Of a stretch of DNA of 64,000 nucleotides, positions 40,184 through 56,630 are shown piece by piece. Source of the DNA: Mesorhizobium sp. (GTDB lineage Bacteria > Pseudomonadota > Alphaproteobacteria > Rhizobiales > Rhizobiaceae). The stretch's first letter is position 1. Each line of letters begins with the position of its first letter. The stretch is from positions 26,112 to 90,111 of the forward strand of contig SAQE01000020.1 in assembly GCA_004020545.1 (NCBI GenBank). Direction: 5' to 3'. The notes beneath the pieces are model-generated. The model saw nothing but the letters and a program-made list of their open reading frames with translations, ran no database searches and was not told the DNA's origin. The position numbers and the translations under genes were made by a program.

Positions 40184-40225
40184 AGGCGCATATCGACACA
40201 CGTGAAGGATCACCGGGAGGTTGGG

Positions 40226-41362
40226 ATGCTCTTGGTTAGTGCCCCCGTGCTGGGTGTACCAGAGAAGGCTGCTTTATCCAAAGTTATTGACAGCGGCTGG
40301 CTGACGATGGGCGAGCGTGTTCGGGCGTTTGAAGAGGCATTTGCCGCAATGCACGGCGTCGAAGACTGCGTCGCGGTGAACTCTTGCACCGCGGCGCTTC
40401 ATCTCATCCTCTACGGACTTGGCATTGGACCCGGTGACGAAGTCCTGGTGCCTTCATTGACTTTCGTGGCGACCGTGAACGCGGTCCTTTATGTCGGTGC
40501 CACGCCAGTCTTCGTCGACATAGAATCCGAAGACGTGCCGCTGATGTCGGTTGCAGAAGCGGAGGCGCGCTGCACGCCCCGCACCCGGGCCGTGATCCTC
40601 GTCCATTTCGCAGGTTATCTTGCCAACAAGGAAGAATGGCAGACATTCGCAAACGTACGAGGCCTCTACATCATCGAGGACGCCGCGCATGCTCCTGGAC
40701 TGAAGGAGGTGGGCACATTTGGTGCCGGAGCGGCATTCAGCTTCTATGGCAACAAGAATATGACCACCGCCGAAGGTGGGGCGGTCGTCACGAGGGACCC
40801 CAACCTGCGTGAGACGATCCGCCAAGCCCGTGGGCACGGCATGACTACCGGAACCCGCCAGAGATTGAACAGCCGCACGCCGCAATATGACGTGACCATG
40901 CTGGGCTTCAACTACCGCATGGATGAAATGCGGGCTGCGATCGGTTTGGTTCAGCTGCGCAATCTGCAGGAGTGGAACGAGGTCAGGCGCATCCTCGTTG
41001 TGCTGTATCGGCGCCTTATCGCCATGCGCTGTCCGACCGTCACGATCCCGTTTTGCGAACCTCGCACCTCCGCCTATCACATAATGCCGATCCTCCTGCC
41101 TCGTTACGTCAACAGGCAAGATGTGATCGACGAGCTGCGTGCGCAGGGCATACAGACCACAATTCACTATCCTCCCGTGCATCAAATGACGCTGTACCGG
41201 GAGCGTTACCCAGGGGTCCACCTACCGCGTACCGAGGATTTCGCCGAACGTGAGCTGACTATTCCACTGCATCCCCAGATCACATCTCCCGTCGCGGAGG
41301 CGGTCGTGGATGCCTTGGCATCAGCCCTCAATGGCGGTGCTCGGGCGGGGGCCGTCGCATGA
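40226..41362 (+). CDS. DegT/DnrJ/EryC1/StrS-family sugar aminotransferase
   Basis: PLP enzyme that converts a nucleotide-linked 4-keto sugar to an amino sugar. 378 residues from the ATG at 40226, which has GGGAGG five bases upstream; a GTG at 40202 is less likely. Motifs: SGWLTMGERVRAFEEAFA, the VNSCTAALHLIL cofactor pocket, IEDAAHAPG with the conserved Asp, and the PLP lysine in FYGNKNMTTAEGG. The gene overlaps the next by four bases. The dehydratase two genes downstream would supply its keto-sugar substrate. Confidence 0.92.
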   Translation: MLLVSAPVLGVPEKAALSKVIDSGWLTMGERVRAFEEAFAAMHGVEDCVAVNSCTAALHLILYGLGIGPGDEVLVPSLTFVATVNAVLYVGATPVFVDIESEDVPLMSVAEAEARCTPRTRAVILVHFAGYLANKEEWQTFANVRGLYIIEDAAHAPGLKEVGTFGAGAAFSFYGNKNMTTAEGGAVVTRDPNLRETIRQARGHGMTTGTRQRLNSRTPQYDVTMLGFNYRMDEMRAAIGLVQLRNLQEWNEVRRILVVLYRRLIAMRCPTVTIPFCEPRTSAYHIMPILLPRYVNRQDVIDELRAQGIQTTIHYPPVHQMTLYRERYPGVHLPRTEDFAERELTIPLHPQITSPVAEAVVDALASALNGGARAGAVA

Positions 41363-42027
41363 ACGCATTCGACCTGCCCCGGCCTGCAATGACACGCGTA
41401 CGCCACGGATTCGGCAGGCGCGCGATGGATATCATTGCCGCGTCCGTCGGCATCATAGTCCTATCCCCGCTGATGTTGACAATTGCGCTCGTGCTGCTGC
41501 TCGAAGGCGGCCGGCCCGTGCTTTTTGTGCAACCCCGCATAGGCGCCGGCGGCCGGCTCTTCCACATGTACAAGTTTCGAAAATTCGATCCGCGCTGCGA
41601 TTCCGGCGGCCTCGCGCTGACCCTTGCCAATGATCTGCGCATGACCGCCGTGGGCAGAATCCTCGCCCTCACCAAATTCGATGAACTGCCGCAGTTGTGG
41701 AACGTCTTGAAAGGCGAAATGGCAATAGTCGGTCCGAGGCCGGAGAGCCTCGCTTTCGCCGAGTGTTTCAGGGACGGCTATGAAGCTGTTCTGCAATATA
41801 AGCCAGGATTGCTCGGCCCTGCTCAAATCATGTTTCGCCGCGAGGCCCTTTTCTATCCTCACGGCATAGAGCCGACGCTTTTCTACAAGGAAGTCCTGTT
41901 CCCAGCAAAAGCCAGGATAGATCTCTCCTATTATGGTCGGCGAACGATGGCGTCGGACGCCGCACTCGTCATCCGCGGTGTCTTCGTTCTTCTTGGCCTT
42001 GGCTTGTCGCGTTCGATGGAACCGTGA
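41359..42027 (+). CDS. Initiating sugar-phosphate transferase (PssA/WbaP C-terminal type)
   Basis: Transfers the first sugar-1-phosphate to undecaprenyl phosphate at the inner membrane. 222 residues with a re-entrant or single N-terminal helix (about 30-50, ending PLMLTIALVLL) and the catalytic motifs QPRIGAGGRLFHMYKFR, TKFDELPQLWNVLKGEMAIVGPRPE in two blocks. The short length means it lacks the extra membrane domain of full WbaP, as in rhizobial PssA or PglC-like enzymes. It overlaps the aminotransferase by four bases, suggesting that the amino sugar could be the first residue. Confidence 0.9.
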   Translation: MNAFDLPRPAMTRVRHGFGRRAMDIIAASVGIIVLSPLMLTIALVLLLEGGRPVLFVQPRIGAGGRLFHMYKFRKFDPRCDSGGLALTLANDLRMTAVGRILALTKFDELPQLWNVLKGEMAIVGPRPESLAFAECFRDGYEAVLQYKPGLLGPAQIMFRREALFYPHGIEPTLFYKEVLFPAKARIDLSYYGRRTMASDAALVIRGVFVLLGLGLSRSMEP

Positions 42028-42093: not shown

Positions 42094-43098
42094 ATGACCT
42101 ACGAGGGAAAGAGAGTTCTGGTCACGGGCGCGGATGGATTCATCGGGTCGCATCTGACCGAAGCGCTGGTTCGCGGGGGCGCCGACGTGACCGCATTGGC
42201 CCTCTATAACTCGTTCGACAGTCACGGGTGGCTGGATGATCTGCCGGACGATATCCGAAATCAGCTGAAGCTCCTGCGCGGCGACGTTCGCGACAGCGCG
42301 TTCCTGGACAGGATCGTGCGTGGCCAAGCCGTTGTCTTTCATCTCGCGGCACTGATCGCCATTCCATATTCCTATGCGGCTGCCCAGTCATATGTGGAGA
42401 CCAACGTCATGGGCACCGTCAACGTCCTGGAAGCGGCGCGCCAGTGGGACGCCGAGCGTGTCGTGCACACCTCCACCAGCGAGGTCTACGGCACCGCACT
42501 CAGCATGCCGATCAGCGAATCCCACCCGCTGCAGGGACAATCGCCATACTCGGCCTCCAAGATCGGAGCCGACATGATGGCGGAGTCCTATGCTCGATCG
42601 TTCGGCGTGCCCGTCGTGGTGCTTCGTCCCTTCAACACCTTCGGACCGCGACAGAGCGAACGGGCAATCGTGCCGACGATTATCAGGCAGGCCCTCGACC
42701 CGAAATGCCCAGCCATCATGGTGGGTGATACCAGCCCGATCCGCGACCTCACCTTCGTCGAGGACACCGCGGCGGCCTTCCTCGCCGCCGGCTCGGCCGA
42801 ACTCGAATTCGGCCATGCCTACAATGCCGGAAGCCAACGCGCGGTGACCATATCGGACGTGTTGGACCTGGTGCTCGACTTGAGCGGCTCCAACAAGCCG
42901 GTTCATCGCGATGAAGGGCGGTTGCGGCCGCAGAATTCCGAGGTCCGGGCTCTGCTGGCGGATTCATCCCGGTTTGAGACCGCAACGGGATGGAGGGCGC
43001 AGACCGGTCTTCGCGAAGGCTTGAGCCGAACCATTGCGTGGTGGCGGACACGGCTCCGTGCGGGCCTCGTACGTCATGAGATGGGTTACATGACATGA
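42094..43098 (+). CDS. NAD-dependent sugar-nucleotide 4,6-dehydratase (LegB-like SDR)
   Basis: 334-residue extended SDR with Rossmann motif VTGADGFIGSHL, the TSTSEVYG strand carrying the catalytic Thr/Ser and acidic residues of 4,6-dehydratases, and YSASKIGAD (Tyr-x3-Lys). The N-terminal YNSFDSHGWLDDLP segment is characteristic of LegB (nucleotide-GlcNAc 4,6-dehydratase of legionaminic acid synthesis) in my memory. It would produce the 4-keto-6-deoxy sugar for the DegT aminotransferase. The stop overlaps the next start as ATGA. An epimerase cannot be ruled out without alignment. Confidence 0.88.
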   Translation: MTYEGKRVLVTGADGFIGSHLTEALVRGGADVTALALYNSFDSHGWLDDLPDDIRNQLKLLRGDVRDSAFLDRIVRGQAVVFHLAALIAIPYSYAAAQSYVETNVMGTVNVLEAARQWDAERVVHTSTSEVYGTALSMPISESHPLQGQSPYSASKIGADMMAESYARSFGVPVVVLRPFNTFGPRQSERAIVPTIIRQALDPKCPAIMVGDTSPIRDLTFVEDTAAAFLAAGSAELEFGHAYNAGSQRAVTISDVLDLVLDLSGSNKPVHRDEGRLRPQNSEVRALLADSSRFETATGWRAQTGLREGLSRTIAWWRTRLRAGLVRHEMGYMT

Positions 43099-44363
43099 GA
43101 CTTCCCCCGCTTGTTGCCGTATTGCTGCTGGTTTGCGTTGCCGCGCTGCTGAACTTGCGGACGGCCGGCGGTCAAGGAAGCAACACATCCACGGGCTTCG
43201 TGGCGCCCGTGGCGATGGATCTGCCTGACTATCTTCGCCCAGCGACCGACCCGGCCTTCGGCACAAGCTTCGTTCGCATCACCAAGACCGGGGCTCTTGG
43301 AAATGGTGTCGTTTGCGGGCCAAAATACTGCAGCCATCGCTATTCGAGCGCTCAAGCCTGGAACGCAGACCAGACATTGCTGCTCCTCGACAACGGCTGC
43401 AATGGAATGTGCTTTCTCGACGGGCACACTTATGTGGCGCTGTTCAGTCGGAAGAGAGGAGGAGAGTGCGAGTGGCACCCTCGAAGCGCCGAGCTGATGA
43501 TCTGCGTTCAAGGCCGGACGATTTCGACCTGGGCACCACGGACGAACCAGGAAGAGATCCTGTTCACCTCCACGGCGTATCACGATCTGCGATTCGGCCC
43601 ATCGAAGGGCAATCCCAGCCGGGACGGCAGCCGCATCGCGGTCCGCGCGGTCCGCAAGGACGGCACGGACGTTGTTTTTGCCTATGATCTGAACCAGCGG
43701 CTGAAATTCCCGGACATCGACCTTGCTCAGGTTCCCGGAACGACCAGCTCCTGCACGATCTCGCCGCTCGGAGCGTATATCCTATGCTTCCAAAACCTGG
43801 TGGACGGCACAGAGCAAAGAGCGATTTTCGCCGTTGACGGCACCTTGCATCAGAGATGGACGGACCATCATCGGCCCGGTCACGGGGATCTGACGGTCGA
43901 CGAGGACGGCAGCGAAGTCTATGTCGGCATCAGCAAATCCAGTCCGGACAAGTTCCAGATCATCAAGCGCAGGCTTTCGGATGGGAAGGCGACTTCCCTT
44001 ACCGCTTACGGCCAGGCGGAACATGCATCGACCCGCGCCCTGGCCAGGGGCGATTGGGTATTCCTGAGCTATGGCGGCGATCCGGACGAGGTATCGGCCA
44101 ATCCGGGCTGGGCTCCCTATGCGCGCGAAGTCATCGCGCTCCGCATCGATGGCAGCGGCGCCATCCGTCGCATCGTGCAGACGCGAAACCCTCCCTCCGA
44201 CTATTGGAGCGAGACTCATGCCTCGCCTTCTCCGGATGGCTCCCAGGTGATCTGGTCGAGCAACTGGGGCACGCCGGGCGGCCCGGTCTACGAGTTCGTC
44301 GCGCGCCTCGACTGGGGCGAACAACAAAATCCGAAGGAGGTTGTTGCCAATGACCAACCTTAG
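43095..44363 (+). CDS. Secreted beta-propeller-like protein of unknown function
   Basis: 422 residues with an N-terminal Sec signal (LPPLVAVLLLVCVAALLNL). The remainder contains repeated blade-like segments such as SPLGAYILCF, SPDGSQVIWSSNWG and NPSRDGSRIAVRAV, suggesting a WD40/oligogalacturonate-lyase-like propeller. There are several cysteines early in the mature protein (CGPKYCSH, CNGMCF, CEWHPRSAELMIC) that could form disulfides. I do not recognise the family. Its position, overlapping the dehydratase and followed by the export gene, suggests a periplasmic or surface role in polysaccharide modification or binding. Confidence 0.75.
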   Translation: MRLPPLVAVLLLVCVAALLNLRTAGGQGSNTSTGFVAPVAMDLPDYLRPATDPAFGTSFVRITKTGALGNGVVCGPKYCSHRYSSAQAWNADQTLLLLDNGCNGMCFLDGHTYVALFSRKRGGECEWHPRSAELMICVQGRTISTWAPRTNQEEILFTSTAYHDLRFGPSKGNPSRDGSRIAVRAVRKDGTDVVFAYDLNQRLKFPDIDLAQVPGTTSSCTISPLGAYILCFQNLVDGTEQRAIFAVDGTLHQRWTDHHRPGHGDLTVDEDGSEVYVGISKSSPDKFQIIKRRLSDGKATSLTAYGQAEHASTRALARGDWVFLSYGGDPDEVSANPGWAPYAREVIALRIDGSGAIRRIVQTRNPPSDYWSETHASPSPDGSQVIWSSNWGTPGGPVYEFVARLDWGEQQNPKEVVANDQP

Positions 44364-45612
44364 CCGGTTCTTCCTTGCGGTTCTTGCGCTCTTGGGCACC
44401 GCGCCGATGGCGGCCGCGGCCGATACATCGAGCGCCTACCGGATTTCACCGGGCGACACGGTCGAAATCGGGATAACCTCCATTCCCGACCGGACCCAGC
44501 GCGCGGTTGTCCAGATGGACGGCACGATCGTGCTTCCTGATGCCGGCACGGTCTCGGTGGGCGGTCTGACGCCGCCCGAATTGCAGACGCGCATGCAGAC
44601 GATTCTGCCGACCAAGATCTTTCACATCCGCATGCCCGACGGCCGCGAACAGATGGCGGTCGTCAGACCAAGCGACGTGACGGCGATCATCGCCGAGTAT
44701 CGCCCCATCTATGTAACCGGCGATGTGCTTACACCGGGACAGCAGGCCTATCGTCCGCTCATGACCGTACGACAGGCGGTCGCTGTGGCTGGCGGTTTCA
44801 GCCTCCTGCGGGCGCGGGGCAACCAGGCAGGCCCGGATCCGACGGATCTGCGACGCGACTATGAGATGATCTGGGGAGAATACACCAGGGATTACTTCCA
44901 CAGCGCGCGCCTGCGCGCCGAACTCGACAAACAGGCAAGCTTCGACACGCAGCCTCCGCAAGGATCGCCTCTTTCTCCCGCGTTGGCGGCCGGAATAGCC
45001 AAGGCCGAAGCGGAAGCGCTCAAGCTCTCGCTGGACAATTTTCAGCAGGAGCAGAGCTTTGTCGAAAAGGGCGCCAAGGATGCCGCCACGCAGGTCGAAG
45101 CGCTGCTGAAGCGCGCGCAGGATGAAGCGGATGGAGTGAAGGCCGATGAAGACGACCTGGAGCAGGTCACCAAGCTGTTCAAGGCCGGGAACCTGACGAA
45201 CAACAGGCTCGCCGATGTTCGGCGCGCTGTCCTGCTTTCGTCAAGCCGGGCGCTGGAAACATCGGTCGAGCTCATGAGAACGCGGCGCCAGCAGGATGAT
45301 TTTGCCAGGCAGCTCGAGCGCAACGAGAACCAAAGGCGTATCGGTTTGCTGAACGAATTGAGGGACACAGAGGTCCGGCTGGCCGACATCGGGACAAGAC
45401 TTCGCGCCGCAAGCCAGAAGCTGCAGCCCCAGGGCGCTACCGCCGCCCCTTTGTCGATCGCCGGCGAAACCGTCAGGGCTCAGATGACGATCGTTCGCAA
45501 GATCGATGGGCAATGGCGCAAGGAACCTGCCGACGAAGACGCCGAAGTGTCGCCAGGCGATACGATCGAGGTCAGGTTCAGCAGTGAACTCGAAAGCGCG
45601 GCGGTCCAGTAG
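44350..45612 (+). CDS. Polysaccharide export protein, ExoF/Wza-like with SLBB and coiled coil
   Basis: Periplasmic/outer-membrane export component. 420 residues; signal peptide ending near AAAA-DTSS, then a poly_export domain (YRISPGDTVEIGIT), an SLBB domain (YVTGDVLTPGQQAYRPLMTVRQAV in two parts), and a long coiled coil (about 210-345). Size and layout are like rhizobial ExoF. AAGGAGG at 44334-44340 supports the ATG at 44350 over the TTG codons just before it. It overlaps the preceding gene by 14 bases. No lipobox cysteine is visible, unlike Wza. Confidence 0.88.
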   Translation: MTNLSRFFLAVLALLGTAPMAAAADTSSAYRISPGDTVEIGITSIPDRTQRAVVQMDGTIVLPDAGTVSVGGLTPPELQTRMQTILPTKIFHIRMPDGREQMAVVRPSDVTAIIAEYRPIYVTGDVLTPGQQAYRPLMTVRQAVAVAGGFSLLRARGNQAGPDPTDLRRDYEMIWGEYTRDYFHSARLRAELDKQASFDTQPPQGSPLSPALAAGIAKAEAEALKLSLDNFQQEQSFVEKGAKDAATQVEALLKRAQDEADGVKADEDDLEQVTKLFKAGNLTNNRLADVRRAVLLSSSRALETSVELMRTRRQQDDFARQLERNENQRRIGLLNELRDTEVRLADIGTRLRAASQKLQPQGATAAPLSIAGETVRAQMTIVRKIDGQWRKEPADEDAEVSPGDTIEVRFSSELESAAVQ

Positions 45613-45644: not shown

Positions 45645-46358
45645 ATGTCGTTACGAGTGCAAGTCTTGAGCGAAGATATCAGCGTTACCGACGCCTACAG
45701 CAAAGGCAGCACCGCCTTCATGGGAATGGAGATGCTGGTCGCTCCCGGTGCACTGGTCCCGCGGCCGGAGACCGAACTGCTTGGCACGACCGCGGTCGAT
45801 GTCTTGCATAAAATGAACCTGCCGGCGCCGCGCGTCGTCGACATGTGCTGCGGCGCAGGCAATCTCGCTTGCGCCATCGCGCATCATGTTCCGGCCGCGA
45901 CGGTCTGGGCCAGCGATCTTACCGATGCGTGTGTCGAAGCAACGCACCGCAATATCGTCCACCATGGACTGGTCGGCCGGGTATCGGTCCTGAAGGGCGA
46001 TTTGTTCGAAGCTCTATCCACTTTGCTGCCTCAGGGCACGATCGACCTTATCGTGTGCAATCCGCCCTATATCTCGGAGAAACGGCTTGAAGGCGATCGC
46101 TCCCATCTGGTCGCTCTCGAGCCGCGCGAGGCTTTCGCGGCCGGGCCCTACGGCATCGCCATCCACATGCGCGTGGTGAAAGATGCCCTGCGGTATCTGC
46201 GGGTCGGCGGTGCGCTGCTGTTCGAGGTCGGCCTCGGTCAGGACCGCCAGGTCGCAAGCCTGATGGAGCGCAGCAGGGGCTACGAGAATATCGCCGCCGT
46301 CACCAACCTCACCGGCGAGGCGCGCGTCGTGCTCGGATACGCAAAGCCGCAGCCCTGA
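45645..46358 (+). CDS. PrmC/HemK-like methyltransferase
   Basis: 237-residue class I methyltransferase with the PrmC-type GALVPRPETELL segment, motif I VVDMCCGAGNLACAI, and the NPPY motif (CNPPYISEKRL near residue 139) that binds a planar amide or amine. It lacks the N-terminal helical domain of housekeeping PrmC, which contacts release factors, so it is likely a paralogue with another substrate. It ends 18 bases from the convergent acyl carrier protein gene, so it could serve either the polysaccharide locus or the adjacent biosynthetic operon. Confidence 0.85.
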   Translation: MSLRVQVLSEDISVTDAYSKGSTAFMGMEMLVAPGALVPRPETELLGTTAVDVLHKMNLPAPRVVDMCCGAGNLACAIAHHVPAATVWASDLTDACVEATHRNIVHHGLVGRVSVLKGDLFEALSTLLPQGTIDLIVCNPPYISEKRLEGDRSHLVALEPREAFAAGPYGIAIHMRVVKDALRYLRVGGALLFEVGLGQDRQVASLMERSRGYENIAAVTNLTGEARVVLGYAKPQP

Positions 46359-46376: not shown

Positions 46377-46652
46377 TCACCCCCTCTTTCGGGCGATGAA
46401 CTGCGCTATTCCCTGGATGGAATCGAGGTTCTCCGGGAGGAGCTCGCTGTCTTCGACGATGATGCCAAAGGTCTCTTCGATGAAGCCGATGACCTCGAGC
46501 ACCCCGGTGGAATCGACGATGCCCTGGTCGAGCAGCGATTCGGTGGTGCTGAGAGATTTCACGTCCGCGATGTAGAAGTTCGAAGCCAGAAAATCCCGAA
46601 TTTGCTTCGTGTAAACGTCGCCCGCGGGCTTGGTTGCCAAAATCGAATCCAT
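46377..46652 (-). CDS. Free-standing acyl carrier protein
   Basis: 91 residues with the carrier helix pattern and phosphopantetheine serine in GIVDSTGVLEVIGFIEETF near residue 48. It is the last gene of the minus-strand biosynthetic operon, 55 bases after the AMP-ligase, so the ligase probably loads it. The DST in place of the usual DSL motif suggests a specialised carrier rather than the fatty-acid ACP. Confidence 0.9.
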   Translation of the reverse strand: MDSILATKPAGDVYTKQIRDFLASNFYIADVKSLSTTESLLDQGIVDSTGVLEVIGFIEETFGIIVEDSELLPENLDSIQGIAQFIARKRG

Positions 46653-46707
46653 CTAATCCACCCTCCGATAAAAAAAGACAAATGCGATCCGCGCCGTCCA
46701 ACAGGCG

Positions 46708-48261
46708 CTACGAAAGAGCTACCTTCTTGAGTTTTCCGGTGTCCGTCCTGGGCAGACTGGGCACGATGACGATGGACTTCGGGACCATGAAGTTTTCCAG
46801 CCGCTTCTGGCATTCCATCTGAAGCTGCTTTTCGCCGACAATCCGTCCTTGCTCGATCACGACGAACGCCTTCACCGCCTGGCCCAGAAGCTCGTCGGGG
46901 ACACCGATCACCGCGGCCTCCTTCACGCCCGGAATGTTCACCAGCACGTTTTCGACTTCCTTCGGCGCAACCTTCTCGCCGCGGGATTTAATAATTTCGT
47001 CGCCGCGGCCGATGAAATAGAGATAGCCCTCCGCGTCCATCCGGCAGTAGTCTCCAGTGTAGAGGACCTGCTCGCCCGGCAAGGGGCCGGGCTTGAGCTT
47101 CCTGGCGGTCGCTTCCGGTTTGCCCCAGTAGCCCTTCATCACCGTCGCGCCACGGATGACAAGCTGTCCAACGGTTCCGGGCCCGACCCGCCTGTCGTTG
47201 TCGTCGACGATCCACATTTCCGTGTTCGGGATCGCAATCCCCACGCTCAGGGGCTTTCGCTCGAGATCTTCCGGCGGCAGGTAGGTGCAGCGCTTGCACT
47301 CGGTGAGGCCGTACATCGAATAGATTCGCGCGTCCGAAAACAGCTCCCTGAGCATGTTGATGTGCTTGAGCGGCAAGGCGGCCGCGGTGTTGGTGACATA
47401 GCGGATGCTCGAAAAGTCGTGGTCCTTCAGCGACTTGAGCTCTGCAAGCGAAGCAAAGATTGTCGGCACTCCGGGAAAGCCCGTAATCCTCTCGTCCTTG
47501 ATGAGCTGAAGGATCCGCGCCGGAAAAGCGAAGGAACGTTCGAGGACAAGCCGAGCGCCGGTGCGGAAGGCCATCAGCATCTGATAGAGGCCGTAGTCGA
47601 AGGCTAGGGGCAGGACGTTGAGGATCACCTCATCTTCGCGAAGCTCCAGATATGACGCTATCGACGTGCATGCCGCCGTCATGTTGCGGTGTGTCAGCAT
47701 CACTCCTTTGGGTTCGCCCGTGGACCCGGAGGTATAGATGATGGCGGCAAGATCGATGTCGATCGAACGGCGTGCCGGCGCGGCGGAAGCTCTTTCGGCG
47801 GCCGTTTCCCAGCGCATCCCATGCGGCAGCCGGCTGAGTTCGTCATCCTCGATCGGCCCCGATACGATCACCTTTCGCAGCGAGCGGCAGTCGCGCGCCG
47901 GCCCGCCGAACACCGAGCGCAAGTGCTGGTCAGTGATCAGCGCCGCCGGTAGGCAATCATTCAGGAGGTAGTCGAGCTTCTCGCTTTTTGTGAGCGGATT
48001 GACGATGCACACGACAGCGTTTGCCTTGAGCGCCGCCCAGAAGCTGACAACGGTCTCGAGCGTGTTGTCGGCGAAGATCATCACGCGGTCGCCGCGTTGC
48101 ACGCCGGCCGATACCAGACATTGCGCGAGCCCGTTGGAGCGCTCGTCGATTTCGGCGTAGGTGATGCGTTGCCGATTGCAAACCAGCGCCACCTTATCGC
48201 CGAGCCGGCTGGCGGAGTGGATCAGATAGTCGTGCAGGAGCGGTACGGCACCATGGATCAT
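46708..48261 (-). CDS. Acyl-AMP ligase (acyl-CoA synthetase family)
   Basis: 517-residue ANL-family enzyme that activates a carboxylic acid with ATP. Motifs: P-loop YTSGSTGEPKG, the A5 segment YGLTECKRC, TGDYCRMDAEGYLYFIGR, and the C-terminal lysine in PRTDTGKLKK. I set the start at the ATG at 48261, overlapping the upstream AsnB stop; the longer open frame contains unrelated sequence. With the adjacent carrier protein it likely forms a loading pair. An AMP ligase, carrier and amidotransferase together also occur in exosortase-type polysaccharide loci. The acid is not predictable. Confidence 0.9.
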   Translation of the reverse strand: MIHGAVPLLHDYLIHSASRLGDKVALVCNRQRITYAEIDERSNGLAQCLVSAGVQRGDRVMIFADNTLETVVSFWAALKANAVVCIVNPLTKSEKLDYLLNDCLPAALITDQHLRSVFGGPARDCRSLRKVIVSGPIEDDELSRLPHGMRWETAAERASAAPARRSIDIDLAAIIYTSGSTGEPKGVMLTHRNMTAACTSIASYLELREDEVILNVLPLAFDYGLYQMLMAFRTGARLVLERSFAFPARILQLIKDERITGFPGVPTIFASLAELKSLKDHDFSSIRYVTNTAAALPLKHINMLRELFSDARIYSMYGLTECKRCTYLPPEDLERKPLSVGIAIPNTEMWIVDDNDRRVGPGTVGQLVIRGATVMKGYWGKPEATARKLKPGPLPGEQVLYTGDYCRMDAEGYLYFIGRGDEIIKSRGEKVAPKEVENVLVNIPGVKEAAVIGVPDELLGQAVKAFVVIEQGRIVGEKQLQMECQKRLENFMVPKSIVIVPSLPRTDTGKLKKVALS

Positions 48262-50279
48262 GCTACCTCCCTTTCCCGATGCTCGTAGTCGACATCGATG
48301 CCGAGATCCGGCCTTGTCGCGCCGGCTGGACGGGTTGCGACAAATTGTTGATGCAGGAGTTGCGTCGACAGCACGCCCACCAGGGCCATGTTGTCGGAAT
48401 TCGACATGTCGCCCTCGCCAACTCGGGCCTGGCACTTTCCAACCAGACGGGCAACCGATTGAGGATCGAAGACGCCCGCCGCTTGCAAAGCCGTCTCGGA
48501 CAATGCTTCACGAATGTATGCCGGGGCGTCGGCGGCGAAGAAACTCAACGCATTCGGCGCCCGGTAGGGTTGCTTCTTTCGAGCAACGACCTGTGGCGGC
48601 AGAATCGGCGCCGCGGCGCGCTTCAGCACGTGCTTCTCATCGAGGCCCCGCAGCTTGTAAGCGTCCGGAAGCGCATTGGCCAAGGCGACGACCTTGTCAT
48701 CCAGGAAGGGGAAGCGGCCTTCGACGGAATGGGCCATCAGCATCCTGTCGCCTTGGGAGGAGAGCAGATAGCCCGACATCAGAGTCCGGATCTCCAGATA
48801 TTGGTCCTGGGCGAGGGGGCTCCATCGCGGGAATTCGGCCGGCAATGTCGAGAGCAGTTCGGTCACCGCGTCGCGCCGTTCCGATGCGGCGCGCATATCC
48901 GGGCAGAACAGGCGTTTGATGGCGCTCGTCGTGCGCCAGCGCGTGTCATGCGCAAATCCGGCCACGGTGTGGGCCTGAATGTTGCGGCCGAAGAATTGCC
49001 TGGCCAGCGCCTGCTGATGAACCGGTGAGCGCGAGAGGTAAGGGTAGAGCCGTTCGAGCAGCCGGGCGCGCCTTGTCGAAGCCGGCTGGCGCCCCCAGAA
49101 GCGGCGCACCTTGCCTTCGCGGAACAGGTCATAGCCGGCAAACATCTCGTCGGCACCTTCGCCTGTCAGCACCACCTTGATGCCGTGTTCCCGCACCAGC
49201 CTGGACAGCAGGAAGAGCGGTGCCGGGGCGGTTCTGAGGATTGGCCGCTCGGTGTGGCGGATCACCTCGGGAAAGACCGAGGCGATGTCGCTGCGCGAAA
49301 CGACTACCTCGTGGTGCTCGCTCCCGGTTCGGGCGGCGACGAGCCGCTGGAAATGGGTCTCGTCATACTCGGCATCTGCAAAACGCAGGGAGAAGGTTTG
49401 GAAACGCTCGCCGGCGAAGCGCCTTCCGAGCGCGGCGACAAGGGAGCTGTCGAGCCCGCCCGACAGATAGCAGCCAACCGGCACATCGGCCTGCACGATC
49501 CGCAACGCCGTCGCGGCTTCCAGCGCGACGCGCACCTCCTCGACCGCATCGTCCAGGGAGCCGCCAGATCGATCGTGTTCCCGACCATCGATTTCCGGAA
49601 AGCGCGGTTGCCAAAAGGGATACTCGCGCGCCACGCCGTTCTCATAGAGGCGCACATGTCCAGGCGGGAGTTCGCGGATGCCCTGAAACACGCTCTGCGG
49701 AGGAACAACCGTCCACATGGTGAAGGTCTGATCGATGCCGGCCGGATCGAACGCGCGCGGGATCGCGGCCTCGGCCGCGAAGATTGCCTTGACTTCGCTC
49801 GCAAAGAACACACGGCCGCCATGCTCGCAGAAATGCAGCGGGCAAATGCCGTAGCGATCGCGCGACAATACCAGGCGGCCGGCAACCGGGTCCCAGATCG
49901 CCAGCGCCCATTGGCCGTTCATACGCTCGAAGGCGGCCTGACCCCATTCCTGATAGGCGTGCAGAGCGACTTCGGTATCGCTGCGGGTGCGGAACCGATG
50001 ACCGAGGGCGATCAGACTGTCCCGCAGTTCGAGGTAGTTGAAAATCTCGCCGTTGAACACGACCCACATCAGGCCGTCAGCGTCGGTGAGGGGCTGCTGT
50101 CCATGTCGAAGATCGACGACCGACAAGCGAGCATGCGCCAGCCCGGCACGTCTGTCCCGGTACAGTCCCCGCTCGTCCGGGCCGCGATGCGCAAGCGCTC
50201 CAGCCATGCGTATCAGTGCCTCACGAGAAGGCGGTTCGGCGGTGGCGCTCAGCGCCAGTATTCCGGCGATCCCGCACAT
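48258..50279 (-). CDS. asnB: Asparagine synthetase-like amidotransferase (second copy)
   Basis: 673 residues. Glutaminase domain with Cys2 (MCGIAG), LAHRGPDERG, FNGEIFNY and SDTEVALHAY; synthetase domain with SGGLDSS near residue 265 and LTGEGADEMFAGYD. All key residues seem present, so it should be able to amidate a carboxylate with glutamine nitrogen. It is only moderately similar to the copy at 26208, especially C-terminally, so it is not a recent duplicate. It overlaps the ligase by four bases and follows nadE by five. In an operon with a ligase, carrier and NRPS-like protein, a role in product tailoring is more likely than asparagine supply. Confidence 0.92.
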   Translation of the reverse strand: MCGIAGILALSATAEPPSREALIRMAGALAHRGPDERGLYRDRRAGLAHARLSVVDLRHGQQPLTDADGLMWVVFNGEIFNYLELRDSLIALGHRFRTRSDTEVALHAYQEWGQAAFERMNGQWALAIWDPVAGRLVLSRDRYGICPLHFCEHGGRVFFASEVKAIFAAEAAIPRAFDPAGIDQTFTMWTVVPPQSVFQGIRELPPGHVRLYENGVAREYPFWQPRFPEIDGREHDRSGGSLDDAVEEVRVALEAATALRIVQADVPVGCYLSGGLDSSLVAALGRRFAGERFQTFSLRFADAEYDETHFQRLVAARTGSEHHEVVVSRSDIASVFPEVIRHTERPILRTAPAPLFLLSRLVREHGIKVVLTGEGADEMFAGYDLFREGKVRRFWGRQPASTRRARLLERLYPYLSRSPVHQQALARQFFGRNIQAHTVAGFAHDTRWRTTSAIKRLFCPDMRAASERRDAVTELLSTLPAEFPRWSPLAQDQYLEIRTLMSGYLLSSQGDRMLMAHSVEGRFPFLDDKVVALANALPDAYKLRGLDEKHVLKRAAAPILPPQVVARKKQPYRAPNALSFFAADAPAYIREALSETALQAAGVFDPQSVARLVGKCQARVGEGDMSNSDNMALVGVLSTQLLHQQFVATRPAGATRPDLGIDVDYEHREREVA

Positions 50280-50284
50280 CCGGG

Positions 50285-51268
50285 TCAGCCCGCGTCCATC
50301 GGGACGGATGGCAAGGGCCGGGCGTGCAGGTAACGTGCTGCCCGACGCTTGGCCTCAATGTCCTTGTAGACCTTTTCGACCTGGCCGCCGGTGAGGCCCG
50401 CAGCCGCCGCGACCTCGTCCGCGCATACTCCATGGTTCACTCCATAGAGGCACAGATCCGTCAGGTGGTAAGGCAGTGCGAAGTAGAATTCCTCCTGGCT
50501 CTGCGCCATGGAGAATGTGTCGGTGGTCGGAGGCCGGCGCCGGATTTCTTCGTTCACCCCGAGATATTCCGCCAACTGGTAAACCTGCGTTTTGTAGAGG
50601 TGCACGATCGGCATCACGTCGGCGATGCCGTCGCCTTGCTTGACGAAAAAGCCCTGGTCGTATTCGAGCCGGTTCGGCGTTCCCGCTACCGCGTAGCCGA
50701 GGCGGTCCGCGTGATAGTACTCCGTCATCTTGCGGATGCGCTGCTTGTAGTTGGTCGCGGCGACGATCTGCAGATAGGCTGCCATGGGCAGCCGGACCGT
50801 GTTGACCTTGCCTTCAGGATCCTGAACCGTGAGACGGGTGATGTTGAGGCCCTGGCTCTCCAGGACCGAGGTAAGCACCAGTTTGCATTTCCACCCTTCG
50901 TCATAGTCTGGAACGACGGAGCGGATGGCCTCGATTTGTCGACGATAGGCGCCGATGGCATCAAGCGCCGGGGCTATGTCTTCCACCAGGGTGTCGATGC
51001 CGAGCTGGGCCGCGATGACGCGCCCGAGCCTAAGCGAGTCTCCGGAGGAGTCACGCTCCGGCATGAAGATTCCCAGGACCTTATCCCTTCCGAAGGCGCG
51101 CACGCACAACGATGCGACGACGGAACTGTCGATGCCGCCTGACAGCCCGACCACCACGCCGCGCCGACGAAGCGTGACCAGAACCTGCTCGCGCGTCGAC
51201 GACGCGATGCGGTCCGCCTCCGCGGCGGCATCCAATGCCAGCACATCCTTGGTGAATAGCGAGATCAT
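50285..51268 (-). CDS. nadE: NAD-synthetase-like amidating enzyme
   Basis: 327-residue N-type ATP pyrophosphatase of the NadE family, ammonia-dependent type since no nitrilase-like glutaminase domain is fused. The PPi loop is VGLSGGIDSSVVAS near 40-53; GTPNRLEYDQGFFVKQGDG and PIVHLYKTQVYQLAEYLG match NadE active-site regions. In NadE the next block is PTADL-like; here it is PPTTDTFSMAQSQEE, which differs. It overlaps the NRPS-like gene by four bases. It may be a paralogue that amidates another acyl-adenylate; the alternative is a normal NAD synthase caught in the operon. Confidence 0.82.
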   Translation of the reverse strand: MISLFTKDVLALDAAAEADRIASSTREQVLVTLRRRGVVVGLSGGIDSSVVASLCVRAFGRDKVLGIFMPERDSSGDSLRLGRVIAAQLGIDTLVEDIAPALDAIGAYRRQIEAIRSVVPDYDEGWKCKLVLTSVLESQGLNITRLTVQDPEGKVNTVRLPMAAYLQIVAATNYKQRIRKMTEYYHADRLGYAVAGTPNRLEYDQGFFVKQGDGIADVMPIVHLYKTQVYQLAEYLGVNEEIRRRPPTTDTFSMAQSQEEFYFALPYHLTDLCLYGVNHGVCADEVAAAAGLTGGQVEKVYKDIEAKRRAARYLHARPLPSVPMDAG

Positions 51269-54000
51269 GCCGGTTGGCCCTCCAATCGCAGAGATTCGGC
51301 CGGCGTATACGTTTGCAGGACGGCCTTCTCGATCAGTGGACGGTTGGTCGCGACGTGAGGCTCCACGACGAGATCGATGTGGGTACCGACGATCGGAATC
51401 ACCTGCAGGTCGCGGAATACGCTATCCCACCCGATGGCGCGGGACATGCCCGGACGAGCACAGCGAAACAGGGTGCCGGGGATCGAAAGCGCCGCTTTGG
51501 GTTCCTCCAGCCACCGGAAGAAGGCCTGGGCCCGCAACACTTCTTGCAGCTCCAGCTTGACCCGGAAGCAGGCTCCATTGAACTGGCCGTCGGTGTAACG
51601 GTCGATCGCGCGAGCGAGACGAGTTTCGTAACCCATTCTGACCGCGATCTTCGCCAGAGCGCGGCAGGCGACGCGGTGGAACGAGATGCGGTTGGACCGT
51701 AGCCGACGCACCGTGCGGGTGACCGTCTCCCAGCGACGGCTGCGCTCGCCCTCAAGGCTCGTGTCGAGAATGCCGACGAACTTTACCGACCGTCCCGCCT
51801 TGAGCAGGCGCACGGCGACTTCCAGGGCAACCGCCCCGCCGAGCGAGTGGCCGAGAAGCCTGACATGGCCCGACGGCTGGGCGCGGTTGACCTGCTGGAC
51901 CGCGGCATCCACCATGCTCGCCAGATCGTTCTGTCCCTTGAGGATCATTGCGAGACCTGGATATCTGATCGGCACGACCTTTGCGGTCCTGCCCATGGCA
52001 GAGGCGAAGGCGGCAAGGCTTGGTCCGTACCCGACGGATCCGGGAAACAGGAAAAGGAGCGGAGGATCATGTTCCGGTGCGGCTCTGCTCGGTGCGGCTG
52101 CTTGCGCCGCGACGACTGCCCTCACCATCTCGTCCGCGCTCATCCCCACGGTGAAGTTCTCAAGCCCGAGCTCCTGGCCGATCAGTGTCTCGATCTCCAT
52201 CACGCAATGCAGCAGCTTGAGCGAGTCTCCACCGGCTTCGTCCCACCTTCCTGCTGCTGCTCGCGTGTTGAGAACCTTGCCCCAGGCCTTTTGCACCACC
52301 TGACGCTCTTTGAGGTCGCTGCCGGGACTTGGCGGATCGGCAATGGTGGTCGGCTTCCTGGCCAGAAGGTCCATCTTGCCGAGTTTCGCCAAGTCTATCT
52401 TTCCGCTGCCCAAGCGCGGAATCTCATCCACGCGATGAAGCCGCAGAGGCCGCAAGGGTGAGGGCAGCGCGTTTGCGATCAACTGGCGAAGGTCGTCCAC
52501 AAAGTCCGGACCCGCGGAATCATTCGGGGTTGCGAATGCGACAAGTTCGGTTGCCTCCGTCACGATCGCCACGGCATCCTGAACGGATGGGGCGGATCGC
52601 AGCACCCTCTCGAGCTCGGCCGGCTCGATGCGTCGACCATTGATCTTTATCTGCCGCCCCTTTCGGCCAATGATCCTCAATAGTCCGTGGCTGTCCAATT
52701 GGACGAGGTCGCCGGTCGGAAAAATCCGCTCGCGCGGATTGTCGGGGTCCGCTTCGGCGGGGGCGACGGCGCCGTTCTCCCAATGCCCAAGGAGGACATA
52801 GGGGCTTTTTATCACGAGCTCTCCCGTTTCACCGGGCGGGGCAGGCCGTCCCTCCTCATTCACGATCGCAAAGGCGATTCCCGGCAAGAGGTGCCCAACC
52901 GGCACGTCCACCTCGGCGTTCGGGTGTTCCAGCGGCAAAAACCACTGCGAGCCTGTCGTTTCCGTGGACGAATAGCCGATCTGGACGAGGCATTGCGGCG
53001 GGACGGCTTTGCGCAGAAGGGCAATGTCGGTCCAAAGCACTCTTTCACCCCCGACGCGGGCTACCCTGAGCGAGCTGAACGTGTCGGCGGGAGCATCGGC
53101 CATGAGCGTGCGAAGCAAGGCGGGCACGAGGTAGGTGACGGTTGTGCCCTGGTCTTTGATCCTCGCGCGAACGCCGCGCAGGCCGATCGTTTCCAGCTCA
53201 ACGAGGTGCAAGGTGGCGCCTGTGAGAATGGCCGCCAAAACCTCTCGACAGCCGGCTATCGTGGCCAGACCCGTCAGGGGAAGGAAAACATCCTCGGAAT
53301 TGATGTGACATGCGTCGACATATTGTTGCACGCGGCAGAGCAAGCTGCGCTGGCTGTTGACGATGCCCTTGGGACGCCCGGTGCTGCCCGACGTATAAAG
53401 AACGATCGCCGGCGCATCGACAGACGATGATGGATGCGGCATGGCCGACAATTGATCGTCCGCTGCGGCATTTGCCGTAATGTCGATCCACTGGATTTCG
53501 GCAGCCAAATCTTCAGGCCGGCTCCCTGTGCCAAGGATGGCAGAGAGCTGCGCCGCGGATGCAATCTCGTTGATCCTGACACTGGGATCCCTTGCATTGA
53601 GCGGGACTGAAATCCTTCCTGCGGCAATGATCGCAAGCACCGCAACAATGTACCAGACCGAAGCCGGCTGGCAGATTCCGACCGCCTTTCCCTCAGGGGC
53701 AAGGGCGGTGACACGTCGGGACCAAATCTGGACGGCGGCATCGAGATTCGAGTAGCGAAGTTCATCCACGCCGTCATGGATGGCCACCTTCGAGGGGTAG
53801 CGCGCCGCAATTTCCCTGAGGTGAGCCGCGATCGAAATGTCTGCGAAGCCGGGCCCTAACGGCCGGTATGGGCGCCGGACCGGGCCCCCGTGATCCAGGT
53901 CATAATCGTCTACGCTTTCCCATCTGCAGGATGCCGGCAAATTAGAATTTTCAAAAAAAACCGTATCCGCCGCTGGTGCCTTCCAGTATGCCGGGAGCAT
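51265..54000 (-). CDS. NRPS-like protein: adenylation, carrier, thioesterase (A-T-TE)
   Basis: 911 residues, first gene of the minus-strand operon. After ~55 residues of N-terminal extension comes an adenylation domain (about 55-545) with YTSGSTGRPKG, GYSSTETTG, FPTGDLVQLDSHG, IKINGRRIEPAE and GSGKIDLAKL; then a carrier domain with GGDSLKLLHCVME near 592-605; then a thioesterase with GHSLGGAVALEV near 715-725. There is no condensation domain. At the position of the Asp that binds the amino group of amino acids (FDxS motif of A4) the sequence reads LATIAGCREV, with no Asp, so the substrate may not be an alpha-amino acid. Monomodular A-T-TE proteins of fungi (atromentin) and bacteria (ralfuranone) act on keto acids. 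The upstream gap is AT-rich and non-coding. Confidence 0.9.
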   Translation of the reverse strand: MLPAYWKAPAADTVFFENSNLPASCRWESVDDYDLDHGGPVRRPYRPLGPGFADISIAAHLREIAARYPSKVAIHDGVDELRYSNLDAAVQIWSRRVTALAPEGKAVGICQPASVWYIVAVLAIIAAGRISVPLNARDPSVRINEIASAAQLSAILGTGSRPEDLAAEIQWIDITANAAADDQLSAMPHPSSSVDAPAIVLYTSGSTGRPKGIVNSQRSLLCRVQQYVDACHINSEDVFLPLTGLATIAGCREVLAAILTGATLHLVELETIGLRGVRARIKDQGTTVTYLVPALLRTLMADAPADTFSSLRVARVGGERVLWTDIALLRKAVPPQCLVQIGYSSTETTGSQWFLPLEHPNAEVDVPVGHLLPGIAFAIVNEEGRPAPPGETGELVIKSPYVLLGHWENGAVAPAEADPDNPRERIFPTGDLVQLDSHGLLRIIGRKGRQIKINGRRIEPAELERVLRSAPSVQDAVAIVTEATELVAFATPNDSAGPDFVDDLRQLIANALPSPLRPLRLHRVDEIPRLGSGKIDLAKLGKMDLLARKPTTIADPPSPGSDLKERQVVQKAWGKVLNTRAAAGRWDEAGGDSLKLLHCVMEIETLIGQELGLENFTVGMSADEMVRAVVAAQAAAPSRAAPEHDPPLLFLFPGSVGYGPSLAAFASAMGRTAKVVPIRYPGLAMILKGQNDLASMVDAAVQQVNRAQPSGHVRLLGHSLGGAVALEVAVRLLKAGRSVKFVGILDTSLEGERSRRWETVTRTVRRLRSNRISFHRVACRALAKIAVRMGYETRLARAIDRYTDGQFNGACFRVKLELQEVLRAQAFFRWLEEPKAALSIPGTLFRCARPGMSRAIGWDSVFRDLQVIPIVGTHIDLVVEPHVATNRPLIEKAVLQTYTPAESLRLEGQPA

Positions 54001-54462: not shown

Positions 54463-55191
54463 CTACACCGGAGGTCGTGATTGCGCTAAATGCGGGACTT
54501 TCACACCATGACGTGCCTTAACGGACTTGGGATCGTCAGCGGCAAACACCGCGCTTGCCTCGCTGACAATGGAGACATGGTCCCTGGCGGCCTTACCCGC
54601 AGCCGCAGCGTCACCGCGCATGATTGCGGTGACGATCACGTCATGTTCCTGCCAGGATTTGGCAAGCCGGCCCGGCAGCATGAACTGCGCGCGCCGGAAC
54701 GGCGCCAGCCGGCTGCGGGTCGCCACGGTCAAATCGTGGATATGCGTGTTGTGGGCGCCGCGATAAAGCCTGCTGTGGAACTCGGTGTTGAAATACTCGT
54801 AGTCCTCCTCGGCTCCGACCTGCACGAGCCGCGCCGATGCCTGATGCTCGATCTCCAGTGAGCGGCGCTCGGCGGCAGTCATTCGCTCGGCCGAGAAGCG
54901 CGCGCAGATCGCTTCCAGTTCGGCCATGCTTTCGAACATCGAGGCCAGATATTCCTGCGTCACCACGGCGACAATGGCGCCCCGGTTGGGCCGTCTTTCG
55001 ACCAGTCCGATGGCGCTCAACTGGCCGAGCGCCTCCCTCACCGGCGTGCGCGAGACCTCGAACCGGGCGGCGAGCGAGGACTCGTCGAGCTTCTCGCCGG
55101 GGCGCAGATAGCCGGTGACGATGCGGTCAGCGATCGCCCTCACCATCTGATCCACGGTCGTGCCCGACCTGACCAAGCGCTTTCCCGACAC
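54463..55191 (-). CDS. GntR-family regulator, FCD subfamily
   Basis: 242 residues: N-terminal winged helix-turn-helix (about 10-75) with LRPGEKLDESSLAARFEVSR followed by TPVREALGQLSAIGLVE, and a C-terminal FCD ligand domain with the metal-binding helices (EYFNTEFHSRLYRGAHN contains the Asp/His-type ligands). It is divergent from the transport and ureide operon and probably represses it until substrate is present. Two identical 11-base sequences in the 290-base gap are candidate operators. Confidence 0.92.
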   Translation of the reverse strand: MSGKRLVRSGTTVDQMVRAIADRIVTGYLRPGEKLDESSLAARFEVSRTPVREALGQLSAIGLVERRPNRGAIVAVVTQEYLASMFESMAELEAICARFSAERMTAAERRSLEIEHQASARLVQVGAEEDYEYFNTEFHSRLYRGAHNTHIHDLTVATRSRLAPFRRAQFMLPGRLAKSWQEHDVIVTAIMRGDAAAAGKAARDHVSIVSEASAVFAADDPKSVKARHGVKVPHLAQSRPPV

Positions 55192-55336: not shown

Positions 55337-55416
55337 GCCTTGCGCTTATGCAGATCTTCTAAAGTCGCTTGTTGATTTTATTACAGAAAACGTCGCGGCG
55401 GAACTGGCATAGCGAT

Positions 55417-55427
55417 TGCATGCACTT
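55417..55427 (+). promoter_or_regulatory. Candidate GntR operator, copy 2
   Basis: Second exact TGCATGCACTT, about 56 bases before the start of the substrate-binding protein gene. See copy 1. Confidence 0.5.
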
Positions 55428-55482
55428 TCTTGGCGAGACATTAACCGACCCCGCCGGGGTCCAAGAAAGGGGAGCATTCGAT

Positions 55483-56610
55483 ATGACCGACAAATTCATG
55501 CTTAGCCGCCGCGATCTGCTCAAGACCTCCGCCGCCGGAGCTGCCCTCGGGCTGGCATCGGCAGCCTTTCCGATCCGTGCGGCGCGCGCCGCCTCCGCGA
55601 CCGTCGGCTTCATCTATGTCGGCCCGAAGGACGACTACGGCTACAACCAGGCGCATGCCGAAGGGGCCGCGTCGCTGAAGGGCATCGAAGGCATTTCCAT
55701 CGTCGAGGAAGAGAACGTTCCCGAGACGGTCGACGTCCAGAAAACGATGGAATCGATGATCAATCTCGACGGCGCCTCACTGATCTTCCCGACCTCCTTC
55801 GGCTATTTCGACCCGCATATGCTGGCCATGTGCGCGAAATTCCCCGACGTGCAGTTCCGCCACTGCGGCGGCCTGTGGAACAAGGACAAGCATCCGATGA
55901 ATGCTGGCTCGTATTTCGGCTATATCGGCATGGGCCAATACCTGAATGGCATCGTTGCCGGCCACACCACCAAGTCGAAGAAGCTCGGCTTCGTCGCCGC
56001 CAAGCCGATCCCGCAGGTCCTGCTCAACATCAATTCATTCCTGCTCGGTGCGCGCGCCGTCGATCCGGCGATCACCTGCCAGGTGATCTTCACCGGCGAG
56101 TGGTCATTGGCGGTCAAGGAGGCAGAAGCCACTAATGCCCTGGTCGACCAGGGCGTCGATGTCGTCACCTGCCATGTCGACAGCCCCAAGGTGGTGGTCG
56201 AGACGGCCGCCGGCCGCGGTGCCTTCGTCTGCGGATATCATGCCAATCAGAGCCCGCTGGCGCCCGAAAAGTACCTGACCGGCGCCGAATGGAACTGGGC
56301 CAAGGTCTATAAGATGTTCGTCGACGATCTCGTCGCGGGCAAGCCGCTGCCGAACTTCACGCGCGGCGGCCTCGCCGACGGCTTCGTCAAGATGAGCCCG
56401 CTCGGTCCGGCCGTCGGCGAGGCGGCGCGCAAGCAGTTCGACGCCACGCTGGCCGAGATGATGAAGGGCGGCTTCTCCGTCATCAAGGGTCCGCTCAAGA
56501 GCAACAAGGGCTCTGTCGTCGCGACCGAAGGCCAGGCCTTCGCCGAAACCGCCATCGAGCTCGAGAGCATGGATTATCTCGTCGAGGGCGTCGTCGGCTC
56601 GACCGCCTGA
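55483..56610 (+). CDS. BMP-family ABC transporter substrate-binding protein
   Basis: Periplasmic solute receptor, 375 residues, with a twin-arginine leader (SRRDLLKTSAAGAALG, mature after about RAARAAS). The BMP/PnrA domain is recognisable by VGFIYVGPKDDYGYNQAHAE, LIFPTSFGYFDPHM and FVAAKPIPQVLLNINSF. BMP proteins usually bind purine nucleosides, but the operon context points to a ureide such as biuret. The ATG at 55483 has GGGGAG upstream; an earlier in-frame start would precede the leader. First gene of the operon. Confidence 0.93.
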   Translation: MTDKFMLSRRDLLKTSAAGAALGLASAAFPIRAARAASATVGFIYVGPKDDYGYNQAHAEGAASLKGIEGISIVEEENVPETVDVQKTMESMINLDGASLIFPTSFGYFDPHMLAMCAKFPDVQFRHCGGLWNKDKHPMNAGSYFGYIGMGQYLNGIVAGHTTKSKKLGFVAAKPIPQVLLNINSFLLGARAVDPAITCQVIFTGEWSLAVKEAEATNALVDQGVDVVTCHVDSPKVVVETAAGRGAFVCGYHANQSPLAPEKYLTGAEWNWAKVYKMFVDDLVAGKPLPNFTRGGLADGFVKMSPLGPAVGEAARKQFDATLAEMMKGGFSVIKGPLKSNKGSVVATEGQAFAETAIELESMDYLVEGVVGSTA

Positions 56611-56630
56611 ACCCGGACGGAGGCGGCAAG

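Follow-up and report, generated by a model that had tools for sequence, protein, structure and literature searches.

Why should a protein resembling NAD synthase be encoded together with a relative of asparagine synthetase, two acid-activating enzymes and a free acyl carrier protein (ACP)? The question arises from a 64-kb window of Mesorhizobium sp. DNA, by which we mean the whole stretch analysed and to whose positions the coordinates below refer. Five open reading frames (ORFs) on its minus strand encode an adenylation-thiolation-thioesterase (A-T-TE) synthetase, a NadE-like protein, an AsnB-like amidotransferase, a ligase and the free ACP. A preliminary description of this locus had read them as one operon of genes on a single strand with tiny gaps or overlaps, and this was borne out. 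All five are present, and their domains were confirmed by Pfam and NCBIfam; the A-T-TE/NadE-like and AsnB/ligase junctions each overlap by 4 bases, and gaps of 5 and 55 bases separate NadE-like from AsnB and the ligase from the ACP, respectively. The start of the ligase was set at the ATG at 48261, the longest ORF beginning at 48435. Beyond the original five, the set recurrently includes a convergent gene for a PrmC-like methyltransferase (MT), whose end is separated here by 18 bases from that of the ACP gene. The conserved unit is formed by the NadE-like protein, AsnB, the ligase and the ACP, often with the MT, and we tentatively read it as a pathway that amidates a carrier-bound amino-diacid and passes it to an amine.

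How widely is this unit conserved? An alignment scan of genome contigs revealed at least 579 genome stretches encoding a relative of the NadE-like protein, the best 80 of which were fetched with their flanks (the 80 loci). AsnB is found in 71 of the 80 loci, the ligase in 74 and the ACP in 68; all three accompany the NadE-like gene in 63, which upholds the earlier suggestion that the genes act as one unit. Contig ends cut 10 of the 17 loci without the full core; the other seven (L087, L095, L104, L105, L106, L114, L116) extend for about 10 kb on each side, and their genes are missing or too divergent. The MT is encoded in 36 loci, a GNAT-like protein in 17, and a homologue of the exopolysaccharide (EPS) export protein encoded near the window operon also in 17. 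Two gene orders dominate, namely NadE-AsnB-ligase-(MT)-ACP, with variants in Myxococcota, and AsnB-ACP-ligase-NadE, often with a GNAT-like gene and sometimes with an MT. The full four-gene core occurs in Alpha-, Beta- and Gammaproteobacteria, Myxococcota/Deltaproteobacteria, Planctomycetota (L091, L099), Bacteroidota (L085) and Candidatus Manganitrophus (L092); in four Acidobacteriota loci (L086, L087, L095, L104), NadE and AsnB are present and the ACP was not detected. Pairwise distances of the four core proteins correlate with r of 0.63–0.88 over 45 dereplicated loci, host kinship still being contained in this figure, while the best of 999 permutations reached at most 0.29. The preliminary description had treated all five families as one set; it is the four-gene core, often with the MT, that is conserved, and the exact five-gene set including the A-T-TE synthetase occurs in 19 of the 80 loci, all of them of the Mesorhizobium type.

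Since the 80 loci are the best-scoring ones and lean towards close relatives, a sample of 299 Pseudomonadota genomes was run as a counterweight. The NadE-like subfamily occurs in 12 of these genomes with one match each, the weakest at 1.7e-128 and with no further match up to 1e-60. All 12 genomes have an ACP of this type within 4 kb. AsnB is found within 4.2 kb in 11, G319 having it on a different contig; the ligase is nearby in 10, with no match at 1e-100 in G336 or G338; and an MT of more than 300 bits lies within about 4 kb in six. Such a gene arrangement is far from chance. Among the 287 NadE-negative genomes, 15 were tested, where the ligase never exceeded 391 bits, AsnB 413 bits and the MT 129 bits; the linked genes score at least 597, 702 and 310 bits, respectively.

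Single loci within these samples show further variation. In another genome of the same genus, the operon AsnB frame is broken by one TGA (G252:C7:160936-162855). The operon layout and spacing are nearly identical in L110, titled Bacillus subtilis SK6B4, and in L113 (Pseudochrobactrum), and the L110 contig is probably contamination or mislabelled. In six loci (L064, L066, L067, L070, L071, L079), the neighbours of the ACP include a GDSL-like protein, a hexapeptide-repeat transferase and/or a hydr2_PEP-like hydrolase; the assignment comes from a family search for one representative of each and from homology for the rest.

Which acid would such a unit handle? VinN of vicenistatin biosynthesis works with the free carrier VinL and the decarboxylase VinO. 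In a PDB search with a 188-residue pocket fragment of the Sinorhizobium meliloti homologue of our ligase, VinN ranks first (131 bits), ahead of 8xjz (87 bits). VinN binds 3-methylaspartate, with D230, F231, S299, K330 and R331 among the key residues (PMC11253843). At these five positions, the window ligase has D222, Y223, T292, K323 and R324 (numbering offset checked), the F-to-Y and S-to-T replacements being conservative. Among 94 ligase homologues, which were not dereplicated (some loci share a genome, and L022 and L023 are the A-T-TE protein itself), the three residues following the Thr-Glu pair are CKR in 73, end in R in 84, are ATA or AAA in 7 and are unreadable in 3. The 73 ligases from L042-L121 alone have Lys-Arg in 57 and Arg in 65, and the full alignment column shows Arg in 93 of 95. 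With a VinN-type pocket, and TECKR instead of the TEAFRS of exosortase-type ligases (TIGR03098), the ligase looks like a free-standing, VinN-type amino-diacid:ACP ligase.

A link to experiment comes from the S. meliloti megaplasmid pSymB. In strain 1021, a single ligase of this family was found on it at E up to 1e-10. This ligase adjoins the only strong ACP match as well as AsnB and NadE-like genes; the other ACP match scores just 27.6 bits and lies elsewhere. As they are the sole such ligase and strong ACP on a replicon whose record gives no gene names, we infer that they correspond to SMb20650 and SMb20651. SMb20650 on pSymB is described as cotranscribed with the ACP SMb20651, and its expression in E. 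coli as yielding acylated SMb20651 (PMC7232532, citing Ramos-Vega et al. 2009).

The two nitrogen enzymes belong to different families. The NadE-like protein scores 515 bits against PRK00876 (cut-off 313) and has an SGGxDS motif and a NadE fold. Its AlphaFold model (pLDDT 86.8) retrieved the NadE fold with Foldseek, with TM-scores among the hits listed of up to 0.86 by target and 0.67 by query. In the predicted model, the segment ~107-160 adds a helix and three strands, with residues conserved in the subfamily, and the alignments to three solved NadE proteins break at this insert. The presence of Francisella nicotinamide mononucleotide (NMN) synthetase (3fiu) among the fold matches indicates that this fold has changed its substrate before. 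The AsnB-like protein scores 539.8 bits against TIGR01536 (cut-off 267.1), and Cys2 and SGGLDSS are at least 95% conserved in 90 sequences. As for the possibility that the two genes are the only housekeeping copies, this is not so: the genome contains a further nadE-like match (a 573-residue frame, 39% over 36-112) and two additional AsnB-like genes. One of the latter lies inside the window, in the EPS cluster (26037-28205, plus strand); it scores 572 bits against the exosortase-type amidotransferase model TIGR03108, below the cut-off of 817, and is nearer to that model than the operon AsnB is.

PrmC uses its NPPY site to methylate an amide nitrogen. The operon MT keeps this catalytic motif, and the N-terminal part is absent in the window copy and present in relatives such as L070. 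Against the PrmC equivalog TIGR03534 it scores 169 bits, below the cut-off of 199.1; operon MTs stand apart from PrmC-like genes (310-400 versus 82-133 bits), and a separate PrmC-like gene resides elsewhere in the same genome (G000:C130). For the GNAT-like partner of other lineages, Pfam and NCBIfam named no family at the thresholds used, and its label is a guess from sequence. The first 49 Foldseek hits of its model are N-myristoyltransferases, at moderate similarity (TM-score ~0.5, root-mean-square deviation 7-9), a fold that would suit an enzyme moving an acyl group from a thioester to an amine.

The A-T-TE synthetase is a Mesorhizobium-type addition to the core. Matches of at least 33% identity occur in 20 of the 21 Mesorhizobium-type loci (L042-L062; L050 is truncated at the end of its contig), whereas the 59 other loci have none. 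At the same position, six of these 59 (L063, L065, L069, L072, L073, L075), from Bradyrhizobium, Tardiphaga, Phreatobacter and one proteobacterial metagenome-assembled genome, encode T-TE or TE alone, which suggests a stepwise domain fusion. The carrier domain of the synthetase gave no Pfam match; its Ser593 (GGDSL) is kept in 35 of 35 aligned full-length homologues. In pairwise alignments, which make the pocket positions approximate, Ile248 of the A domain replaces the amino-group-binding Asp, and Arg252 and Arg315 align to positions 239 and 299, all three residues being invariant (35/35). An alpha-amino-acid nonribosomal peptide synthetase is disfavoured by Ile at the Asp235 position and by the two arginines, and the substrate is probably a non-amino, acidic compound.

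Paralogues of the synthetase (~47-50% identity) occur without the core nearby on pMLb of M. japonicum and on one B. elkanii plasmid; these plasmid copies (L022 11755-14688; L023 11881-14616) lie near FkbM and/or aldo/keto reductase genes. Three Mesorhizobium loci (L047, L054, L057) have the two kinds of A-T-TE gene together, at a distance of about 3.3 kb, the paralogue being upstream of the operon. On the plasmid of Mesorhizobium sp. AR07, the A-T-TE match (L048 7262-9986) changes from one frame to another close to the 3' end, and the record annotates no gene at this place.

Does the operon serve the neighbouring EPS cluster? A homologue of the EPS export protein (>600 bits) is present in 15 of 37 genomes of the genus, our own included. 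Of these 15, 11 have the operon in the window order (A-T-TE seen in 10; the contig ends in G017), and the EPS genes adjoin the operon in all 11. Five genomes of the genus have the other gene order alone, and in these no EPS export gene exceeds 600 bits. In the wider set, the export gene was found in 15 of the 21 Mesorhizobium-type loci; one operon, that of L048, is plasmid-borne and has FkbM and polysaccharide genes in its vicinity. The neighbourhood of operon and EPS genes is thus invariable in the sample of relatives (11/11) and common but not general in the wider set. In Bradyrhizobium (L073 and L075), the core genes are followed on the same strand by genes for a DegT aminotransferase, a sugar transferase and an export protein. 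That the set also exists without EPS genes proved to be the usual case, the export homologue being found in the flanks of only 17 of the 80 loci. The LegB-like dehydratase and the PseC/ArnB-like aminotransferase of the window appear, from their family assignments, to make a 4-amino-4,6-dideoxy sugar, the amine of which could accept a carrier-bound group. The features of the locus are collected in Table 1. The upstream side of the operon is occupied by a GntR/FCD regulator gene (54463-55191, minus strand) and PnrA-like ABC transporter genes (55369-57755, plus strand).

Table 1. Genes of the operon and of the adjoining EPS cluster in the 64-kb window.
Feature	Position	Strand	Basis or remark
A-T-TE synthetase, 911 aa	51265..54000	-	AMP-binding and thioesterase (Pfam/NCBIfam)
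NadE-like ATP pyrophosphatase, 327 aa, without glutaminase domain	50285..51268	-	NAD_synthase; PRK00876
AsnB-like glutamine-dependent amidotransferase, 673 aa	48258..50279	-	Asn_synthase and glutaminase domain
VinN-like carrier-protein ligase, 517 aa	46708..48261	-	AMP-binding; Asp222, Tyr223, Thr292, Lys323, Arg324
Free ACP, 91 aa, Ser48 in DST motif	46377..46652	-	PP-binding
PrmC/HemK-like MT, 237 aa, convergent with the operon	45645..46358	+	NPPY kept, N-terminal part absent
Polysaccharide export (Poly_export/SLBB) protein, EPS cluster	44341..45612	+	domain search
LegB-like 4,6-dehydratase, EPS cluster	42094..43098	+	408 bits, below cut-off 475
Initiating sugar-phosphate transferase Bac_transf	41359..42027	+	domain search
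DegT aminotransferase, PseC/ArnB-like 4-amino-sugar enzyme	40202..41362	+	below those equivalog cut-offs

Taken together, we propose the following pathway, which we hold tentatively and with somewhat less than even confidence. The ligase would activate an aspartate-like amino-diacid and load it onto the free ACP, probably via the beta-carboxylate as VinN does. The glutamine-dependent AsnB and the NadE-like enzyme, ammonia-dependent and with a reshaped substrate region, would then form one or more amides, either at the carboxylate left free on the carrier-bound unit or at that of a partner, and the PrmC-like MT, judging from its NPPY site, may methylate the amide nitrogen. An acyl-transferring partner, presumably the TE-type domain in rhizobia and the GNAT-type protein in other lineages, would pass the unit to an amine. 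In Mesorhizobium, the A-T module fused to TE would bring a second acid without an alpha-amine, and the likely acceptor would be the 4-amino-4,6-dideoxy sugar apparently made by the adjacent EPS genes. The only reported step is the acylation of the ACP upon ligase expression in the S. meliloti pair (PMC7232532), and all others are inferred. A wider version, in which a NadE-fold amide synthetase, AsnB and a PrmC-derived amide N-methyltransferase jointly assemble an aspartyl unit, N-methylated or amidated, on a free ACP and hand it to the amines of cell-surface sugars in several phyla, we regard as unlikely.

Several observations weigh against the proposed pathway. Product, substrate and acceptor are all predicted from sequence, and two amide-forming enzymes exceed the need of one amide. 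The MT was not seen in 44 of the 80 loci. Asp222 is conserved in only 69 of 95 ligases, and ATA or AAA in place of xxR in seven homologues implies that the acid may differ between lineages. An unlinked second ligase (500 bits) occurs in G252, and in G336 the contig that encodes a second AsnB (586 bits) has a weak ACP match next to it and no NadE-like gene. As for the sugar acceptor, four of the 15 EPS-positive genomes have no NadE-like gene at all, the export gene was not found in the fetched flanks of six of the 21 Mesorhizobium-type loci (L047, L048, L053, L054, L057 and the short L049), and an export homologue occurs in only two of the 41 full-flank loci outside the Mesorhizobium type. Decorating this polysaccharide therefore cannot be the general function. 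The four genomes without a NadE-like gene still have the DegT, sugar transferase, LegB and export genes (in L145 with a shortened copy of the gene at 43095); the EPS cluster thus exists without the operon as well, as would be expected if the operon were an accessory decoration module. The preliminary description had offered an amidated acyl product or a decoration of the polysaccharide; an amidated carrier-bound acyl group is still the best reading, and the decoration does not hold as a general role.

The strongest alternative is a free small amide, such as a signal, an osmolyte or an antimetabolite, secreted or intracellular and released by the TE domain or the acyltransferase, with the EPS genes as a mere chromosomal neighbourhood. 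TE domains are able to release free products, and most loci outside Mesorhizobium, S. meliloti pSymB included, have the core but no EPS export gene, as do the six Mesorhizobium-type loci just named. However, all 11 genomes with the window-type operon in the sample of relatives have it beside the same EPS cluster, and in Bradyrhizobium (L073 and L075) it continues on one strand into DegT, sugar transferase and export genes. We consider a free amide nearly as probable as the proposed pathway.

The ligase might instead be a long-chain acyl-ACP synthetase in a fatty-acyl system, with the other enzymes modifying a lipid. A fatty-acid ligase is disfavoured both by the VinN-type Asp, Lys and Arg of the pocket and by smb20650, which failed to restore the fadD mutant phenotypes tested and so could not replace fadD (PMC7232532); we deem this explanation improbable. 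It is even less probable that the set belongs to the exosortase-A/PEP-CTERM EPS machinery, to whose ligase-amidotransferase loci it had been likened. The parts are indeed related, TIGR03098 and TIGR03108 being the best or second-best models for the ligase and AsnB, and the two loci examined for it, L071 and L094, contain hydr2_PEP- or hydr1_PEP-like genes, below cut-off. Membership is rejected by the scores and by the other pocket motif, no search for an exosortase or PEP-CTERM proteins having been made: the ligase reaches 489.4 bits against a curated cut-off of 592.35, and AsnB 411.8 against 816.9. TIGR03098-type ligases from 20 loci have TEAFRS in all 19 sequences that could be read, 14 of which score above the cut-off, whereas the window ligase and most of its homologues have TECKR; a TIGR03098 match over the cut-off is found in none of the 12 NadE-positive genomes versus 17 of the 299 overall. 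Finally, that a second NAD synthase entered the operon by chance is the least probable of all, for despite the NadE fold and the PRK00876 match above cut-off, the genome has a separate nadE-like gene, the NadE-like gene tracks AsnB, ligase and ACP across phyla, and a conserved insert interrupts its alignments to solved NadE proteins.

If the proposed pathway is true, it would mean a NadE-fold enzyme acting on carrier-bound substrates and would give the S. meliloti SMb20650/SMb20651 pair a role. The public plasmid records consulted that have gene tables name these genes NAD(+) synthase, asparagine synthase, and acyl-CoA ligase, AMP-binding protein or adenylate-forming enzyme, and with such names the pathway genes have likely been taken for housekeeping genes. 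Many Sinorhizobium records list nothing at the place of the nadE-like gene, so a search by gene name would miss it; the gene tables of the megaplasmid records NC_003078.1 and NC_017326.1 contain one feature each. The enzyme families themselves are known, and no description of this gene set, that is, of these partners around a VinN-like tailoring module, was found in the open-licence literature searched, an earlier description elsewhere being possible.

How does the system compare with known ones? The NadE-like protein shares the fold and the ATP pyrophosphatase motif with bacterial NadE proteins, including the Francisella NMN synthetase (3fiu), and differs from them in its conserved ~107-160 segment and in its partner genes. 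The Wbp/Vim linking sugar of P. gingivalis resembles the proposed pathway in its AsnB-type uronamide formation and in the aminoacyl transfer to an amino sugar, for which the N-acetyltransferase-like VimA has been proposed; the available excerpt mentions neither a ligase-ACP pair nor a NadE-like enzyme there (PMC7468200). The exosortase-A set (TIGR03098, TIGR03108, hydr1/hydr2) offers a related ligase and AsnB and, in some loci, an EPS setting, to which the window operon adds a NadE-like gene, the TECKR motif and scores below the cut-offs. With VinN (PMC11253843), the window ligase has in common the pocket Asp, aromatic residue, Ser/Thr, Lys and Arg, and it stands instead with a NadE-like protein, AsnB and, in many loci, an MT. 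The closest counterpart is the S. meliloti operon, which has the order AsnB-ACP-ligase-NadE without the A-T-TE synthetase. In its excerpt, PMC7232532 leaves the acyl group of the SMb20650-SMb20651 pair unstated and NadE and AsnB unmentioned; the pair belongs to the same operon family, with the ligase next to the ACP, and is reported to be cotranscribed and to give acylated ACP in E. coli.

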